A DNA stretch of 20,459 nt, from positions 1-20,459 of IMG/VR virus record IMGVR_UViG_3300029258_000580; one strand, 5' to 3'. The translations under genes and the position numbers were made by a program. How positions within the stretch are numbered: the first letter of the stretch is position 1; the number at the start of each line of letters is the position of its first letter. The DNA comes from a virus. Positions 6,540 to 20,459 of the stretch are shown piece after piece. The notes beneath the pieces were generated by a model. The model saw only the letters and a list, made by a program, of their open reading frames with translations. It was not told where the DNA came from and ran no database searches.

Positions 6540-7343
6540 ATGGCACTGAAAAAATTCTACGGCACACAAGAGGAAATCCCGGAAGCGCTCCGGAATCTGT
6601 ACATCCAGAAGGACGGGAAGTTCGTACTGGACATTGAGGGCGGCGTTGAAGACGTGACTGGGTTAAAATCGGCGCTTGGCAAGGAACGTGCCAGGGCGGA
6701 CAAGGCTGAGAAAGACTTGAAATCATGGGCTGAATCGGGCGTTGAAGCGCCTGACAAAGTAAGGGAGTTACTTGCGCAGCTCGACACACTCAGCAAACTC
6801 GACCCGAAAAGCGAGGCTGAAAAGCTTGCTCAGGCAAAAATCGAGTCAATCAAAACACAACTAACCGACTCCCATAGCAAGGAAAAGAAAATCTTGCAGG
6901 ACAAAAACGTCTCTATAACCTCGCAGCTCAAAGAGGTGCTTGTAGACAAAGAAGTGCAGAGGGTTCTGTCTCTGCCTGACGTCAAAGGCAATGCAACCTT
7001 GCTACTGCCGCATATCCGCAGCAAGGTCCAGATGGTCGAAAACTCACAGGGAACGTATGTTGCCCAGGTGCTCGATGACGCGGGAAACCCCCGTGTCAAC
7101 TCAGACGCCCGGGATATGTCGATCACCGACCTGGTGAACGAGTTCCGGCAGGATCCCGTGTTCGCAAGTGCTTTTGAAGGAACAGGCTCAAGCGGCTCAG
7201 GCCCTCAGAACAACGCGGGCGACAACTTTACGCCCGGAACAGTAGATAACCCTACTGTTTTACGCTCGAATGACCCGTTCGTGCTGGGAGAGCACGCGGA
7301 GGCAATCGCGGATGGTTCCGTGATTGTCGAACCACCGGAATAA
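6540..7343 (+). CDS. Capsid scaffold protein
   Basis: Scaffold proteins line the inside of the prohead during coat assembly and leave before or during DNA packaging. The 267-residue product starts with EEIPEALRNLYIQKDGKFVLD and IEGGVEDVTGLKSALGKER, a pattern common to phage scaffold-like proteins. A long charged coiled coil covers about residues 35-140 (KERARADKAEKDLKSW, EAEKLAQAKIESIKTQL, KEVLVDKEVQRVL). The C-terminus is Gly/Ser/Asn-rich and flexible. No protease motif is seen. It lies just upstream of the decoration and coat genes. The SD sits in a hairpin loop. Assignment is by composition, N-terminal pattern and position. Confidence 0.83.
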   Translation: MALKKFYGTQEEIPEALRNLYIQKDGKFVLDIEGGVEDVTGLKSALGKERARADKAEKDLKSWAESGVEAPDKVRELLAQLDTLSKLDPKSEAEKLAQAKIESIKTQLTDSHSKEKKILQDKNVSITSQLKEVLVDKEVQRVLSLPDVKGNATLLLPHIRSKVQMVENSQGTYVAQVLDDAGNPRVNSDARDMSITDLVNEFRQDPVFASAFEGTGSSGSGPQNNAGDNFTPGTVDNPTVLRSNDPFVLGEHAEAIADGSVIVEPPE

Positions 7344-7359
7344 CAAAAGGAGTAAAAAC

Positions 7360-8412
7360 ATGAAATTTCTGGTCATTATACTCATGGCCCTTACACTGCC
7401 GTTAAGCGCAGCTACATTTTCCAGCAGCGGCCTGCCCGAAGGCGCGTCCATTATCTTCGGCAGCACCTCAACAAGCTCAGACACATACTATGCGCCGTAT
7501 GTAAACAGTGATGGCAAACTGCGGATAGACACTGTCGATACCGTGAGCGCCATTACGCTGAGCGAGATTGACACGGTTGAAGTGCTTGAAACTGTAGAGA
7601 TTGTATCCGAGGTTTCGAACGTAACAAGCGTTGACACCGTGGACACGATCACGAGCATAACAGGCGGGTCCATTGATGTTGATTATTTGACTGAGGGTTT
7701 TCTCACCGAGGTTGCGCGCGGGAACGTGTCCGGCGTGGACCTGTGGACCCTTACCCAGATTAACGACACGCTGCCTACCAGTAAAGAACTGATTTCCCCG
7801 CAGAGCACGATCGAGCAGAACGCAGCAGCTGCTGCAACACTGTATATATCATCCTCAAGCGGAACCGATGACAAGGACCTGCAGGGTGTGCAGAGCGTAA
7901 AAATATGGGGAATCAACGGCAGCGACGCGCTTATTTCAGAGGAAATTGACATTGAAGGACAAGCCACGGTAGAAACCACCGCATCGTTCGCGTACGTGAT
8001 AAAAGCGGCGGCCCTGACCGAAGGAACATCCGGCCAGGTCGGTGATATCTACGTCCATAAAAACGATAATATCACTACAGGCGTTCCTGATGACACTACG
8101 TCAACCTACCTCAAGATCCCGATCGGGTATGGAAGTTCCGGGAACGGCAAGTTCTTTGTTCCTGCCGGAGATACTGCAGTCCTGGTGGATGCAAACATCA
8201 GCTGCAGTGGAACAGGGCCCTATGTGGTGTATCTGTTCAACAAGAAAGACGGGGCTGCAAATAATCTGTTGGGGATCTACTGCCTTGATGACGGTGCGGA
8301 TCACGTTCCGTTGAACATCCCACTTGAGGCCCTGGAATACATACACTGGGAAGCGCTGTCGGCAAACGCGGGCGATGATATCGCGGTTACTTTCCGCGTG
8401 CTGCTTTATTAA
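7360..8412 (+). CDS. Signal-peptide-bearing fibre/decoration-like virion protein
   Basis: ATG 7360 is chosen because AAAGGAG lies at 7346-7352; this gives 350 aa. The N-terminus MKFLVIILMALTLPLSAA looks like a Sec signal peptide (K2, hydrophobic core 3-15, cleavage near A17/A18). Residues 56-100 show hydrophobic Val/Ile/Leu at almost every third position (for example VSEVSNVTSVDTVDTITSI), a possible fibrous trimer shaft. Residues about 180-350 are beta-rich (VKIWGINGSDALISEEIDIE, then TTASFAYVIKAA, FFVPAGDTAVLVDAN, VYLFNKKDGA) and resemble a beta-sandwich recurring in phage head-fibre or decoration proteins. Position between scaffold and coat suits a head decoration protein, but a cleaved export signal would take it out of the assembly compartment. 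Function is unresolved. Confidence 0.7.
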   Translation: MKFLVIILMALTLPLSAATFSSSGLPEGASIIFGSTSTSSDTYYAPYVNSDGKLRIDTVDTVSAITLSEIDTVEVLETVEIVSEVSNVTSVDTVDTITSITGGSIDVDYLTEGFLTEVARGNVSGVDLWTLTQINDTLPTSKELISPQSTIEQNAAAAATLYISSSSGTDDKDLQGVQSVKIWGINGSDALISEEIDIEGQATVETTASFAYVIKAAALTEGTSGQVGDIYVHKNDNITTGVPDDTTSTYLKIPIGYGSSGNGKFFVPAGDTAVLVDANISCSGTGPYVVYLFNKKDGAANNLLGIYCLDDGADHVPLNIPLEALEYIHWEALSANAGDDIAVTFRVLLY

Positions 8413-8441: not shown

Positions 8442-9596
8442 ATGTCTTTATCAAATACACTAACCCCGTTGATCCCTAAGATTCTCGCCCGCACCCTGGC
8501 CGTCCTGCGCAATCAGTGCACCATGCCGCGCCTGGTGTTTCGTGGATATGAAAAAGAGGCGAAAAAGAAAGGAAATGTTGTTACCATCCCTCTTTCCGCT
8601 TCGCAGACTGTCGGAGACGTCACTCCCGCTGTGTACGGGCCGAGCTCTGGGAACAAGACAATTTCCAGCGTGTCCTTGACCCTGAACAAATGGAGAAACA
8701 CCTATTTCGGGCTGACTGATCAGGAAATGACCCACATTGCCGCGGACAAGGATTTTATTCCTGGCCAGATGGCCGAATCCGTGGCCGCCCTGGCGGACGA
8801 TGTGAACGAGTACCTGCTCAGCCTGTATGTGGGCATCTACGGTTATTCCGGCACTGCTGGCACGACCCCGTTTCAGACAAATGCCCGCGCGCTGACCGGT
8901 GCAAGGAACGCCCTGAACGCTCAGAAGTGCCCGAACTTTGACCGTGCTTGCGTCCTGGACAATGACGCAGCTGAGGAAGTCCTGAACCTGTCAAGCTTTG
9001 CGGATGCGAGCAAGACCGGTGAGAACAAGGTCAAGATCGAGGGCCAGATGGGCCGCAAATACGGATTCAACCTGTATGAGGACAACGCTGTTTCCTCTCA
9101 TACAGCCGGAACAGACGGTGGAGCAGCTACTATCAACTCCGCCACAGTTGAGCCTGTCGGAGAAACTACCATTAAGCTCAAGGCTGTCGGTGGAACTCTG
9201 GCGCTTCTGGAAGGCGATATCATCACCATTGCGGGCGACACACAGACTTACGTGGTTGACGATGACGTTACGATCACGAGCGGGAACACTGGCGATTGTG
9301 TAATCGCCCCTGGGCTCAAGGTCGCAACATCTGGAGATGAGGCAATCACCATCAAGTCAACTCACGTGTGCAATCTTGCGTTCAACCGGATGGCCTTTGC
9401 TTTCGCGTCCGCTCCCACTGCAAACGCTACCCTGCGCAATGCAGGCGCGCAGATTTCAAGCATGGCCGACCCTCAGACTGGATTGGTCATTGAGGCCGAA
9501 ATAATCAGGCAGTACAAGCAGGTAGTGTTTGACGTTTCAATGCTGTACGGCGCAGTGCTTCTGCAGGCAGCGAGGGCCGCGAGGGTCGCGGGATAA
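8442..9596 (+). CDS. Major capsid protein, P22 coat-like (HK97 fold)
   Basis: This is the shell subunit. AAAGGAG (8427-8433) precedes the ATG, as expected for a highly expressed gene; the product is 384 aa. The N-terminus (NTLTPLIPKILARTLAVLRN, then MPRLVFRGYEKEAKKKGNVV and TIPLSASQTVGDVTP) matches the P22 gp5-like coat pattern. The middle contains ALADDVNEYLLSLYVGIYGY and the FDRACVLDNDAAEEVLNL region. Residues about 222-307 are a Gly/Thr-rich beta insertion (LLEGDIITIAGDTQTYVVDD), corresponding in position to the P22-family I-domain. The C-terminus returns to the core fold (NLAFNRMAFAFASAP, EIIRQYKQVVFDVSMLYG). No N-terminal scaffold domain is fused, which agrees with a separate scaffold gene upstream. 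Confidence 0.88.
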   Translation: MSLSNTLTPLIPKILARTLAVLRNQCTMPRLVFRGYEKEAKKKGNVVTIPLSASQTVGDVTPAVYGPSSGNKTISSVSLTLNKWRNTYFGLTDQEMTHIAADKDFIPGQMAESVAALADDVNEYLLSLYVGIYGYSGTAGTTPFQTNARALTGARNALNAQKCPNFDRACVLDNDAAEEVLNLSSFADASKTGENKVKIEGQMGRKYGFNLYEDNAVSSHTAGTDGGAATINSATVEPVGETTIKLKAVGGTLALLEGDIITIAGDTQTYVVDDDVTITSGNTGDCVIAPGLKVATSGDEAITIKSTHVCNLAFNRMAFAFASAPTANATLRNAGAQISSMADPQTGLVIEAEIIRQYKQVVFDVSMLYGAVLLQAARAARVAG

Positions 9597-16482: not shown

Positions 16483-16834
16483 GCGGCCGCCTGAAGATCC
16501 CCGAACGGCTTTATCACATTCCCTGGGCGGATTGCGGTAGGGGCTGGAGCGGGTGCGACTGTTACGGTCTGGTCAGGCTGGCCGCATGTGAAATATTCGG
16601 GCAGGACTGGAACAGCTGATATTCAAGCATAGCGGAAAATTCAAGCGCGTACAGGAACCGCAGCCGGGGGACCTGGTGCTATTCCGGATCATTGGTTTCA
16701 ATTCGCACATCGGCCTGGTGCTGGAAAACGACAAGTTCCTGCACATGTGGAAAGGCGCAGGTGTGGGGATAGAGCGCTTTGTGGGGCCGAAATGGGTCCA
16801 CAGGGTAGAGGGGTTTTACAGACATGCAGCTTGA
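16479..16834 (+). pseudogene. Tail-tip NlpC/P60 peptidase (lambda K-like), frameshifted
   Basis: The N-terminal part (16479-16619, 46 aa) has the catalytic Cys context SGCDCYGLVRLA, then stops at TGA after FGQDWNS. The rest of the domain continues in the -1 frame from about 16592 to 16834: QPGDLVLFR, the catalytic His in SHIGLVLENDKFLH and a typical end WVHRVEGFYRHA. Intact relatives have one frame of about 140-150 aa, cut peptidoglycan for DNA entry and sit in the tail tip. Here about 20-30 linker residues between the two halves seem missing, so a small out-of-frame deletion is likely. There is no slippery heptamer and no usable start in the second frame. The 3' end overlaps the J-like start by 11 bases. 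Confidence 0.82.
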
Positions 16835-19800
16835 CCAGGGCAAATATAATGTAGTCATTCAAACCGTTGCATTCCAGGCGGCGAAGCAGGAATTTTCTGT
16901 AGATCCCGCAGAGCTTGGCCGGCGCGGAATAGCTCAGAATATCGCAGGTATATTACAATTTCTAGGCTTTGACGGCACTTTCAACGGTGCTGTTCACATC
17001 GGCGGCAGGATCATCGGGCATGAGCAGTTTAGTACAGAATTCCCGCCCCCTGGGTGTTTGATTCATGTTGTTTGTGTTCCTCAACGCGGTGGTGGCGATG
17101 GGGGAAAGGACTTCAAAAAGACCCTGACCTCTATCGCTATCATTGCAACCGCTTCATGGATAGCAGGCCCGATCCTGGGCGGGCACTTCGGGCTCTGGAC
17201 CTCTGCGAGCATAGCCCGCCCCTTAGTCACAACTGCAATAGCTTCAATGCTGAGCAAGTCCCTGATTGCACCACAGGCGAACGCTGCACCTATGGCGTCC
17301 AGGAATGTGCAGGACGGTTCAGGGCGCACGCATTCTATCACCGGGATCAGGAACACGGCGAACCCGAACGGGCCGGTTCCAAAAGTGTTTGGCAAGCGCA
17401 AGATGTTCCCCGTTTTCGGCGCTGAGCCATACACGGAAATCAGAGGCAATGACATATATCTGCTGTGCCTGTTCCTGATCGGATACGGCCCAGTAGACAT
17501 TTCGGACATGAAAATAGGCACAACTGATATTGACGATTACTCGGATGTTTCATACAACACGTTCGAGGGCTGGCCAGACGACTCGGCCCTGAGCATATAC
17601 ACGAACGACACACACTCTGAATCGGTCGACGCTTTGGTGGAAAACGGGACGCCCGTCACCAGGACCACACAGGAAGACACGACCCGGATCAGTGTTGACC
17701 TGTGTTTCAAGCAAGGCCTGTTCAGCCTGGCGGCAAACGGCGATCTTTCAAGCGAGACGGTTTCAATCAAGATTGAATATTCCCCGACCGGAGAAGAGGA
17801 CTGGAGTACAGCTACAACCCTAACAGTGACTGAGCAGGGCAACTCTGTTGTGTGGCGCAACCACACCTGGGACGTAACCTCTGGCCAGTATGACGTAAAG
17901 ATCACCCGCAATACGGCAGACTCCACAGACAGCACCGTTTACGACACGTTCTACTTTTTCCAGTTGAAATCAATTGCAGCCTCAACCCCTGTGAGCATGG
18001 ACGGAATGGCCATGGTAGAAATGTGCATCAAAGCAACAGATCAGCTTTCGGGCATCGTGGACCAGTTCAACTGCATTGTGGAAGCGTACCACCCTGAATA
18101 CTTGGGATCAGCAACAGATATCACTGCTGTCAACTCGACAAACGGCTGGATAAGCTCAAGCACGAATCTGGACACGCTCCTGGATGTTAACGATTACGTA
18201 CAGGTTTCAGGGTTTGACGAAAGCGCGAACAACTGGAACTACAGACGGGATGCGGGCGCGACCATGGCGAAGGTGGCAAGTGTTGCGAGCTTTGCGGCAA
18301 CCTTCACGAACCTGGTCACGGTTGCAGACGAGGCCCCTGGAGACACCGTATACCTCTGGAAATATTCCAAGACTAGGAACACTGCATGGTGTTACCTGGA
18401 TGTAGTCAGAGGCAGGGGCGCGCTCAATCCGATTGCAGACAGCCGTATATATTTGTCAGCTTTTTCCACCTGGGCAACTAATTGCGCAGCTGCAGGCTAT
18501 AAATTTGACTATGTCTTGACTGGCGAAACGACACAAAAGCAAATGCTACGCCTGATAGCACCTACCGGGCGCGGGTCGTTTGCACTTCGGGACGGCAAGC
18601 TCAGCATAGTAGAAGACGTGGACCAGGGCGACGACATCAAGCAAATGATCACGTCCCGGAATTCCTGGGACTCGAAAATCAACAAAAAATTCATTGCACA
18701 GCCGCACGCCTTTGACCTCTATTTCGAGAACGAGGACGCGGACTATGACGAGGATAACCGGGTAGTCTATTTCAGCGGGTATGATGAAAACTCGGCTACA
18801 AAGTTGGAAAAGGTAATGCTTGAAGGTGTGACCGACCCTGACCAGGTGTGGAAGGAAGGCAGATACAGAGCCGCCATGCTCGAACACAGGCCGCGCACAA
18901 TCACGACTCACATGGATTTTGAGCACATGCTGATTGACGGGCGCGGGGACCTGGTTCTGTTCAACAACGCCGGACTCGAACAAGGACTCTGTGGCGGCAG
19001 GATCACGGCGGTAACCCTTGACGGCTCTAACCGTTGCACTCATGTCACGGTTGACGATGAGTGCGCCATGAGCGGCGGCACAGACTACGGGATCACGGTC
19101 AGAAAGTCTGATAACAGCTATGACATAGTTTCAGAGCAGATAGTCACAAATGCGGGAAATCAGACCACCCTGGAATTCACTACGCCCCTGGGGGCTGCTG
19201 ATCCTCAGCCGGAGGTGGGCGATCTGTTCAGCTTCGGTGAATACGAGTCCGAAACAATCAAGTGTATTGTGTCCAGGATCATCCCTATGAGCAACCGGGC
19301 CGCCACCCTGATCCTTGAGGACGAGGGGCCAGCCATATACACGGCTGATACAGGCGAGATTCCAGCTTGGACTAGTTCAATCACTTTGCCGACTGCGCAA
19401 AAGCTCAAATACCCGCCCGCTCCGACACTCCTGACCATCCGGAGTAACGAGGAAGTGCTGATCAGGCAGGGCCGGAAGGGCGACTTGATTACACGCGCGC
19501 TGCTTTCCTTTGCTCCGCCTACTCAGGCGGGGATTCCCGCAGAATGGTATCAGGCGCGCTGGAAGCGGTCCGATGAAACACAATGGCATAAAGACCCGGC
19601 TGTCCCAGCAGAGGCAAACGAGCTGTCTGTAATCGGCCTTGATGATGGCGTTTCCTATGACTTCCAGGTGCGCTCAATTTCTGCCTACGGCCTGGCCAGC
19701 GACTGGACCACCTGCAGCGGGGCTTTGACAGCATATACGGTAATAGGGAAATCAACCGACCCGTCTGATGTAACAGGCTTTTCAGTTGCTATTCAGGGTG

Positions 19801-20459
19801 AAAAAATTCGGAGCTCCTGGACAAAAGTCGATGACCGCGATGTGTCAAATTACATAGTGAGGTATGGTGAGACCAGCGATGATTGGGACGATATGCTACC
19901 CGTCAACGAAGACAGCGGAGAAACCGGAGACGTGAGCAGTTTTCTTTCCGATGCGCTTGTAGCAGGCACTTACAAGTTTGCAATCAAGGCAAAAGACACA
20001 AGCGGAAACACAAGCGATACTGAGGCAAATGCAGTCCTGGCGATCAGCGTCCCGGAAGATTCCACAGTAACATACGACATAACAGATAACGGCGTGGTGG
20101 TAGACTGGGACGACTGCAAGGACGCAAACGGTTTCCCGATCAAACATTACAAGGTCAGGGAGACTGAAGGCGATAACGTTGTGGGCTACTTTGACACCAC
20201 GCAGTGTTTTATTCCGGCCATGACTGCAGGAACATACAACTGGGAAGTAACGGCCATAGATGCAGCTGGAAACGAAAGCGGCACACCAGGCACAACAGGA
20301 GCGATTACGATTTCTGGCCCGAGTCAGCCCAGGGACGACGGCTCTTTTGTAGAGCGATCGCACGTGCAGATCCGCGTAACAGACTGCGAGACGGACTTCG
20401 ACATTCTACGCTATGAATACAGGCGCGGGCTCACGACACAGGAGGTCGGAAACGCCACA
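16824..20459 (+). CDS. Tail tip host-specificity protein, lambda J-like (3' partial)
   Basis: The frame runs from ATG 16824 (GAGGGG 10 bases upstream) to the window end without a stop: 1212 codons. Residues 1-94 form a small N-terminal domain ending GCLIHVVCVPQRGGGDGGK. Residues about 98-155 are hydrophobic (TLTSIAIIATASWIAGPILG, then TAIASMLSKSLIAPQ), as in J proteins. The long beta-rich middle contains GPVPKVFGKRKMFPVFGAEP, LYLDVV-like hub blocks and GRGDLVLFNNAG. Three fibronectin type III-like repeats occupy about 863-975, 980-1076 and 1078-1165 (e.g. YDFQVRSISAYGLASDW, YKFAIKAKDTSGNTSD, YNWEVTAIDAAGNESG). It forms the baseplate hub and central fibre that contacts the host receptor. No separate I-like gene lies between it and the NlpC gene. 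Confidence 0.92.
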   Translation, partial: MQLDQGKYNVVIQTVAFQAAKQEFSVDPAELGRRGIAQNIAGILQFLGFDGTFNGAVHIGGRIIGHEQFSTEFPPPGCLIHVVCVPQRGGGDGGKDFKKTLTSIAIIATASWIAGPILGGHFGLWTSASIARPLVTTAIASMLSKSLIAPQANAAPMASRNVQDGSGRTHSITGIRNTANPNGPVPKVFGKRKMFPVFGAEPYTEIRGNDIYLLCLFLIGYGPVDISDMKIGTTDIDDYSDVSYNTFEGWPDDSALSIYTNDTHSESVDALVENGTPVTRTTQEDTTRISVDLCFKQGLFSLAANGDLSSETVSIKIEYSPTGEEDWSTATTLTVTEQGNSVVWRNHTWDVTSGQYDVKITRNTADSTDSTVYDTFYFFQLKSIAASTPVSMDGMAMVEMCIKATDQLSGIVDQFNCIVEAYHPEYLGSATDITAVNSTNGWISSSTNLDTLLDVNDYVQVSGFDESANNWNYRRDAGATMAKVASVASFAATFTNLVTVADEAPGDTVYLWKYSKTRNTAWCYLDVVRGRGALNPIADSRIYLSAFSTWATNCAAAGYKFDYVLTGETTQKQMLRLIAPTGRGSFALRDGKLSIVEDVDQGDDIKQMITSRNSWDSKINKKFIAQPHAFDLYFENEDADYDEDNRVVYFSGYDENSATKLEKVMLEGVTDPDQVWKEGRYRAAMLEHRPRTITTHMDFEHMLIDGRGDLVLFNNAGLEQGLCGGRITAVTLDGSNRCTHVTVDDECAMSGGTDYGITVRKSDNSYDIVSEQIVTNAGNQTTLEFTTPLGAADPQPEVGDLFSFGEYESETIKCIVSRIIPMSNRAATLILEDEGPAIYTADTGEIPAWTSSITLPTAQKLKYPPAPTLLTIRSNEEVLIRQGRKGDLITRALLSFAPPTQAGIPAEWYQARWKRSDETQWHKDPAVPAEANELSVIGLDDGVSYDFQVRSISAYGLASDWTTCSGALTAYTVIGKSTDPSDVTGFSVAIQGEKIRSSWTKVDDRDVSNYIVRYGETSDDWDDMLPVNEDSGETGDVSSFLSDALVAGTYKFAIKAKDTSGNTSDTEANAVLAISVPEDSTVTYDITDNGVVVDWDDCKDANGFPIKHYKVRETEGDNVVGYFDTTQCFIPAMTAGTYNWEVTAIDAAGNESGTPGTTGAITISGPSQPRDDGSFVERSHVQIRVTDCETDFDILRYEYRRGLTTQEVGNAT

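Follow-up and report, generated by a model that had tools for sequence, protein, structure and literature searches.

The heads of tailed phages are thought to be finished wholly in the cytoplasm, and phage decoration and cement proteins are made and added there, without a signal peptide. In phage lambda the decoration gene D lies between the scaffold gene nu3 and the coat gene E. The lambda record also marks the first 22 codons of the portal gene B as sig_peptide, a segment that we take to be a proteolytic leader and not a Sec signal. Genes for proteins of the phrog_8198 type (S-SCSM1 QFG06287, Syn1_111, DSL-LC05 and ctjtQ328) keep company with head, neck and packaging genes; the proteins begin at their domain or at a short non-hydrophobic leader, with neither a signal nor a stalk of period 3. 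XepA and YomS of Bacillus prophages are jelly-roll beta-sandwich phage proteins of a family with two jelly rolls and a pentameric assembly; XepA is presented as a lytic-cassette protein and reported to be exported late, and the available part of its description names no signal peptide (PMC6834076). Searches of the open-licence literature turned up no account of a Sec signal on a head protein of a tailed phage.

The window, by which we mean the whole 20,459-nt stretch of viral DNA analyzed here (record G000), carries a siphovirus-type head and tail cluster in the order terminase, DUF4055 portal, Mu-F-like protein, scaffold, a gene for a protein of 350 aa, P22-type coat, tail tube and tape measure. 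At 16824-20459 a frame that stays open for more than 1,212 aa and runs off the contig end probably encodes a tail-tip or host-specificity protein. The 350-aa gene lies in the slot of lambda gpD, scaffold-X-coat corresponding to nu3-D-E. Its product shares with the phrog_8198-type proteins a homologous beta-sandwich region of 240 residues and a genomic setting among head, neck and packaging genes, and unlike them it opens with a putative Sec signal followed by a possible period-3 stalk.

The N-terminal segment of the 350-aa protein

The features of the locus are as follows.

6540-7343, plus strand: head scaffolding protein (phrog_206, 2.6e-33)
7301-7328, plus strand: predicted 12-bp RNA hairpin at the 3' end of the scaffold gene, in a block nearly unchanged among relatives
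7347-7352, plus strand: Shine-Dalgarno (SD) sequence AAGGAG, 7 nt 5' of the ATG
7360-8412, plus strand: 350-aa coding sequence, with putative signal, linker, possible period-3 stalk and beta-sandwich virion-type region
7360-7413, plus strand: predicted Sec/SPase I-type signal peptide, residues 1-18, the first 18 codons (rule-based score, shuffles, ORF-set baselines)
7414-7521, plus strand: low-complexity linker, residues 19-54, with a predicted beta hairpin at 43-59 (AlphaFold2 model, low-to-middling confidence)
7522-7683, plus strand: residues 55-108, hydrophobics at a strict period of 3 (autocorrelation)
7693-8409, plus strand: beta-sandwich region, residues 112-350, homologous to phrog_8198-type virion proteins (tblastn, AlphaFold2, fold matches)
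8442-9596, plus strand: P22-type major coat protein (phrog_283, 4.6e-66; PF11651, 8.2e-16)

The coordinates, neighbours, length and strong SD of the gene agree with an earlier reading made from the sequence only. The gene opens with MKFLVIILMALTLPLSAATFSS after AAGGAG at a 7-nt spacing, and the motif AAAGGAGT is found 5' of both this gene and the coat gene. The protein begins with MKFLVIILMALTLPLSAA, followed beyond the predicted cleavage site by TFSS, and the segment consists of K2, a hydrophobic core from F3 to L13, P14, and S16-A17-A18 at positions -3 to -1. It thus has the positive n-region, the hydrophobic core of 7-15 residues and the small residues at -3 and -1 by which Sec/SPase I signals are recognized in sequence. 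A lipobox cysteine, as in an SPase II signal, is absent: residues 1-40 contain no cysteine, and the protein has only C282 and C308.

We scored N-termini by rules that combine a positive n-region, an uncharged core of eight residues averaging 2 or more in hydropathy, small residues at -3 and -1, and no intervening charge. The 350-aa protein scored 4.94, with the site after A18. Among 200,000 shuffles of the protein, 0.56% had any such N-terminus and 0.013% scored equally high, so few that chance is an unlikely source of the segment. The same rules, applied to 156 loci with 828 distinct SD-led ORF products, gave a score to eight: the 350-aa protein, its close relative, the products of two adjoining genes of one distant contig (L034), a membrane protein resembling spanins and three antisense frames, the 350-aa family and the two L034 genes being the strongest. 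Across 1.69 Mb of whole viral contigs carrying the same domain, 19 of 1,757 products scored at least 3.3; inspected by eye, the others at this level were lipoproteins, small proteins of unknown kind and probable non-genes, and head-protein domains occurred among them only in a phage, G001, described below. No other ORF of the window reached the score. Since no SD-led start codon was found just 3' of the signal, a mis-called start is also unlikely. Cumulatively, these baselines and the retention of the signal in close relatives bear out the sequence-only reading that a head-cluster gene carries a Sec-type signal, and residues 1-18 probably work as an export signal. That reading had also called such a signal unexpected, and we concur: an export signal on a gene of this cluster is odd when phages assemble their heads within the cell.

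The virion-type body and its relatives

Residues 111-298 matched, by tblastn, proteins of DSL-LC05 (3e-9) and ctjtQ328 (4e-7), both phrog_8198; relatives of the body on viral contigs were found from 4e-18, and the domain occurs at 133 loci that include named phages. A PHROG profile search with the 350-aa protein gave no match at an E-value of 1, and its relatives P0001, P0002 and L034 matched the phrog_8198 profile at 8.6e-40, 1.4e-50 and 3.1e-20, respectively. Genes of this type adjoin terminase, portal, coat or adaptor genes, and the record of Synechococcus phage S-SCSM1 names its homologue (QFG06287) 'virion protein'. In the study of purified S-SCSM1 virions, 45 phage proteins were detected by mass spectrometry (PMC9602691), and the naming in the record suggests that the homologue is among them. 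An NCBIfam search with the 350-aa protein gave no match, and weak matches to Pfam FlgK_2nd (0.042) and PADLOC AbiEi (0.031) were taken as chance.

In an AlphaFold2 model built from 61 sequences, residues 112-350 had block-mean pLDDT values of 80-96, with values below 50 for residues 1-39 and most of 69-101. The best rows from a structural aligner were an archaeal virus turret (4ind, Z 10.6), XepA (6i56, Z 10.2 over 96 residues and one sandwich only), an endospore fibre (9i0y, Z 9.8), PirA (3x0t, Z 9.6) and the trimeric cement protein of phage KHP40 (7dou, Z 9.6, 107 residues aligned), the last tied with unrelated beta-sandwiches. Tied, middling Z values for a common fold support only the description 'jelly-roll-like' for the model, and a Z near 10 at about 10% identity denotes a shared beta-sandwich arrangement, not function. 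Foldseek alone returned low-TM matches, and a sequence search of solved structures with the 350-aa protein gave no meaningful match. Decoration and cement proteins are smaller than the window protein, and a sequence relation to them was not found. Ahead of the body, residues 55-108 repeat VxxVxxI, unlike a heptad coiled coil, with a lag-3 autocorrelation of 14 against an expected 6.8 that none of 20,000 shuffles attained; this stretch may be a fibrous stalk. The linker and stalk alone found no match in a phage and plasmid search, in which the BLAST low-complexity filter may hide relatives.

The closest relative lies on a contig from another metagenome (L004/L026), where the same gene, 83% identical, again stands between scaffold and coat. 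It opens with MKFLVIILMALILLPAQAAVFSS, and its signal is MKFLVIILMALILLPAQA, followed by A. The first 11 codons are identical in the two genes, and this identity is no evidence for the signal, because those codons fall within a block of about 91 identical nt (window 7303-7393) that starts in the scaffold gene and takes in its 3' end with the hairpin, the SD and the 11 codons; synonymous sites elsewhere differ by about 0.6. This block may be a recombination joint or an RNA element, and a conserved block of 110 nt was discounted as signal evidence, recombination or RNA structure explaining it equally well. Codons 12-19, in contrast, differ and include an indel, so that the c-region reads TLPLSAA in the window and ILLPAQAA in the relative, with AQA as the relative's cleavage motif and small residues at -3 and -1 in both. 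That the signal chemistry is retained although the cleavage region has changed argues modestly for selection on the signal. Near the 3' end of the L026 gene (about 1081-1110), a deletion and a frameshift, which may be an assembly error, remove about 30 codons; a further contig, L005, covers the C-terminal third of the protein with an intact C-terminus and retains both C282 and C308.

Whether homologues share the segment, a point raised by the sequence-only reading, has a divided answer: it is absent from about 130 distant homologous loci and kept in the close lineage, which makes it a lineage-specific addition and not an ancestral trait of the family. Across the 133 loci, relatives begin at or just before the domain, the exceptions being the window lineage and L034. 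A DNA pattern search for the start of the signal recovered only the known relative. A first genome scan found no host or prophage relatives; the one relative from a second, a distant contig within a Poseidonia MAG, lacks the signal. In nine other phages with a related coat, some of them incompletely annotated, no comparable large gene was found between scaffold and coat (Rhizobium phage P106B has small ORFs there), from which we conclude that the 350-aa gene is an accessory insert.

A second phage with predicted signals on structural genes

L034, the sole other signal-bearing relative, lies on the 43-kb phage contig G001 (IMGVR_UViG_3300020171_000063), whose coat family (phrog_334) is unrelated to that of the window. 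Its phrog_8198 member is about 26% identical to the window protein, and its signal was acquired separately from that of the window lineage; further relatives of L034 showed no signal. The four genes of G001, in or near its structural cluster, that bear predicted Sec- or lipoprotein-type signals are as follows.

L173:10867-11571, minus strand
L034:2830-3396
L034:3399-4127
L173:9009-9353, minus strand

The phrog_8198 member begins with MNRTIACAICFLMLTGVSFS, followed beyond the predicted cleavage site by E, and the gene immediately before it opens with MKYKALALLLALILCPAAYA, followed by D. Two more proteins are encoded on the same strand: one of 235 aa carries MKKLIMLCALAGAFLCNDLIPCYA, a candidate signal of 25 residues, ahead of a complete SU10-adaptor domain that starts at residue 26 (PF24175, 8.7e-16), and the other, of 114 aa, has a start that resembles a lipobox. 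The adaptor signal was found by eye and falls below the rule-based threshold, its core being broken by N and D; SU10-adaptor N-termini of other phages (eight among the matches listed) have no such signal. A second adaptor of G001, without a signal, adjoins the phrog_8198 gene. AlphaFold2 gave an unusable model (pLDDT 39.6) for the second putatively exported G001 protein. Like the window gene, then, the phrog_8198 member of G001 and its structural-cluster neighbours bear predicted Sec-type signals, and this makes a one-off accident a less likely origin of the window signal.

Possible roles of the protein

The sequence-only reading had offered a host-surface protein carried by the phage, or a virion fibre with an uncleaved N-terminal anchor. 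Both stand as alternatives, and homology adds an option between them, a virion- or decoration-type body. The reading that we prefer, tentatively and at somewhat short of an even chance, is that the 350-aa protein is of decoration or head-fibre type, has acquired a Sec signal, matures outside the cytoplasm and joins capsids after lysis. With a virion-type body, a decoration slot and a protein that would be exported, joining capsids from outside after lysis is the simplest reconciliation. On this view the gene would be expressed late and at a high level, and its product would pass through Sec and be cut after A18. Folding would take place in the periplasm, where C282 and C308 might form a disulphide and the period-3 stalk might hold a trimer together, and only lysis would bring the protein into contact with completed capsids, to whose exterior it would bind. 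The rarity of the signal, its retention, the virion-type body, the slot and the G001 case all speak for this decoration reading; against it, all the remaining relatives do without a signal, and export through Sec would draw the protein out of the cytoplasm in which heads are assembled. We know of no precedent for post-lysis decoration by an exported phage protein. As to the main site of action, we lean with similar reserve to the capsid after lysis, the host envelope or another site being the alternative.

In an unlikely, though not negligible, alternative, the exported protein would never enter the particle but would remain at the host envelope, on its surface or within it, and serve there as an adhesin, as a decoy, or to block receptors or bring about superinfection exclusion. 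The apparently functional signal is consistent with such a role, as are the emptiness of the slot in related phages, typical of accessory genes, and the frequency of beta-sandwich folds among surface binders; however, the body comes from a family located among head, neck and packaging genes with a virion-labelled member, the gene lies within the head operon and not at its edge, and no known defence family was matched beyond AbiEi at its chance level.

Slightly less likely, in our judgement, is an N-terminus that remains uncleaved as an anchor in the membrane, or in the capsid or trimer core, of a protein assembled as an ordinary virion fibre. The mean hydropathy of the 19 residues 3-21 (2.13, the best 19-mer of the protein) and that of the best 19-mer in the relative (2.66) exceed the usual membrane thresholds, and the body is of virion type; yet before P14 the core spans no more than about 11 residues, the small-residue motif for cleavage that comes after it is kept, as AQA, in the relative, and about 130 relatives do without any such anchor.

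A jelly-roll protein exported late that aids lysis and is missing from mature particles, as is reported of XepA of PBSX, which is also described as cytotoxic (PMC6834076), is a very improbable model for the window protein: XepA is the second-best fold match, but the likeness is at the level of a common fold, with 9% identity over one sandwich, and a lytic-cassette protein there stands against a signal-bearing head-cluster gene here. An artefact, whether a wrong start codon or a chance hydrophobic N-terminus, is scarcely credible given the strong SD at the ATG, the lack of an alternative start, conservation in the second contig and the scarcity of equally good shuffles.

More broadly, it is possible, if on the doubtful side, that some tailed phages deliberately use the host Sec pathway for virion-type proteins, among them decoration proteins and even an adaptor of the neck; the particle would then be finished in part beyond the cytoplasm, during lysis or later, or the exported copies would act on the host envelope. 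Two unrelated phages have predicted Sec signals on a virion-family protein, and one of the two has them on several structural genes, a head-tail adaptor among these; if the signals act as proposed, there would be a post-lysis step in the completion of the particle, or virion parts would be re-used as exported effectors.
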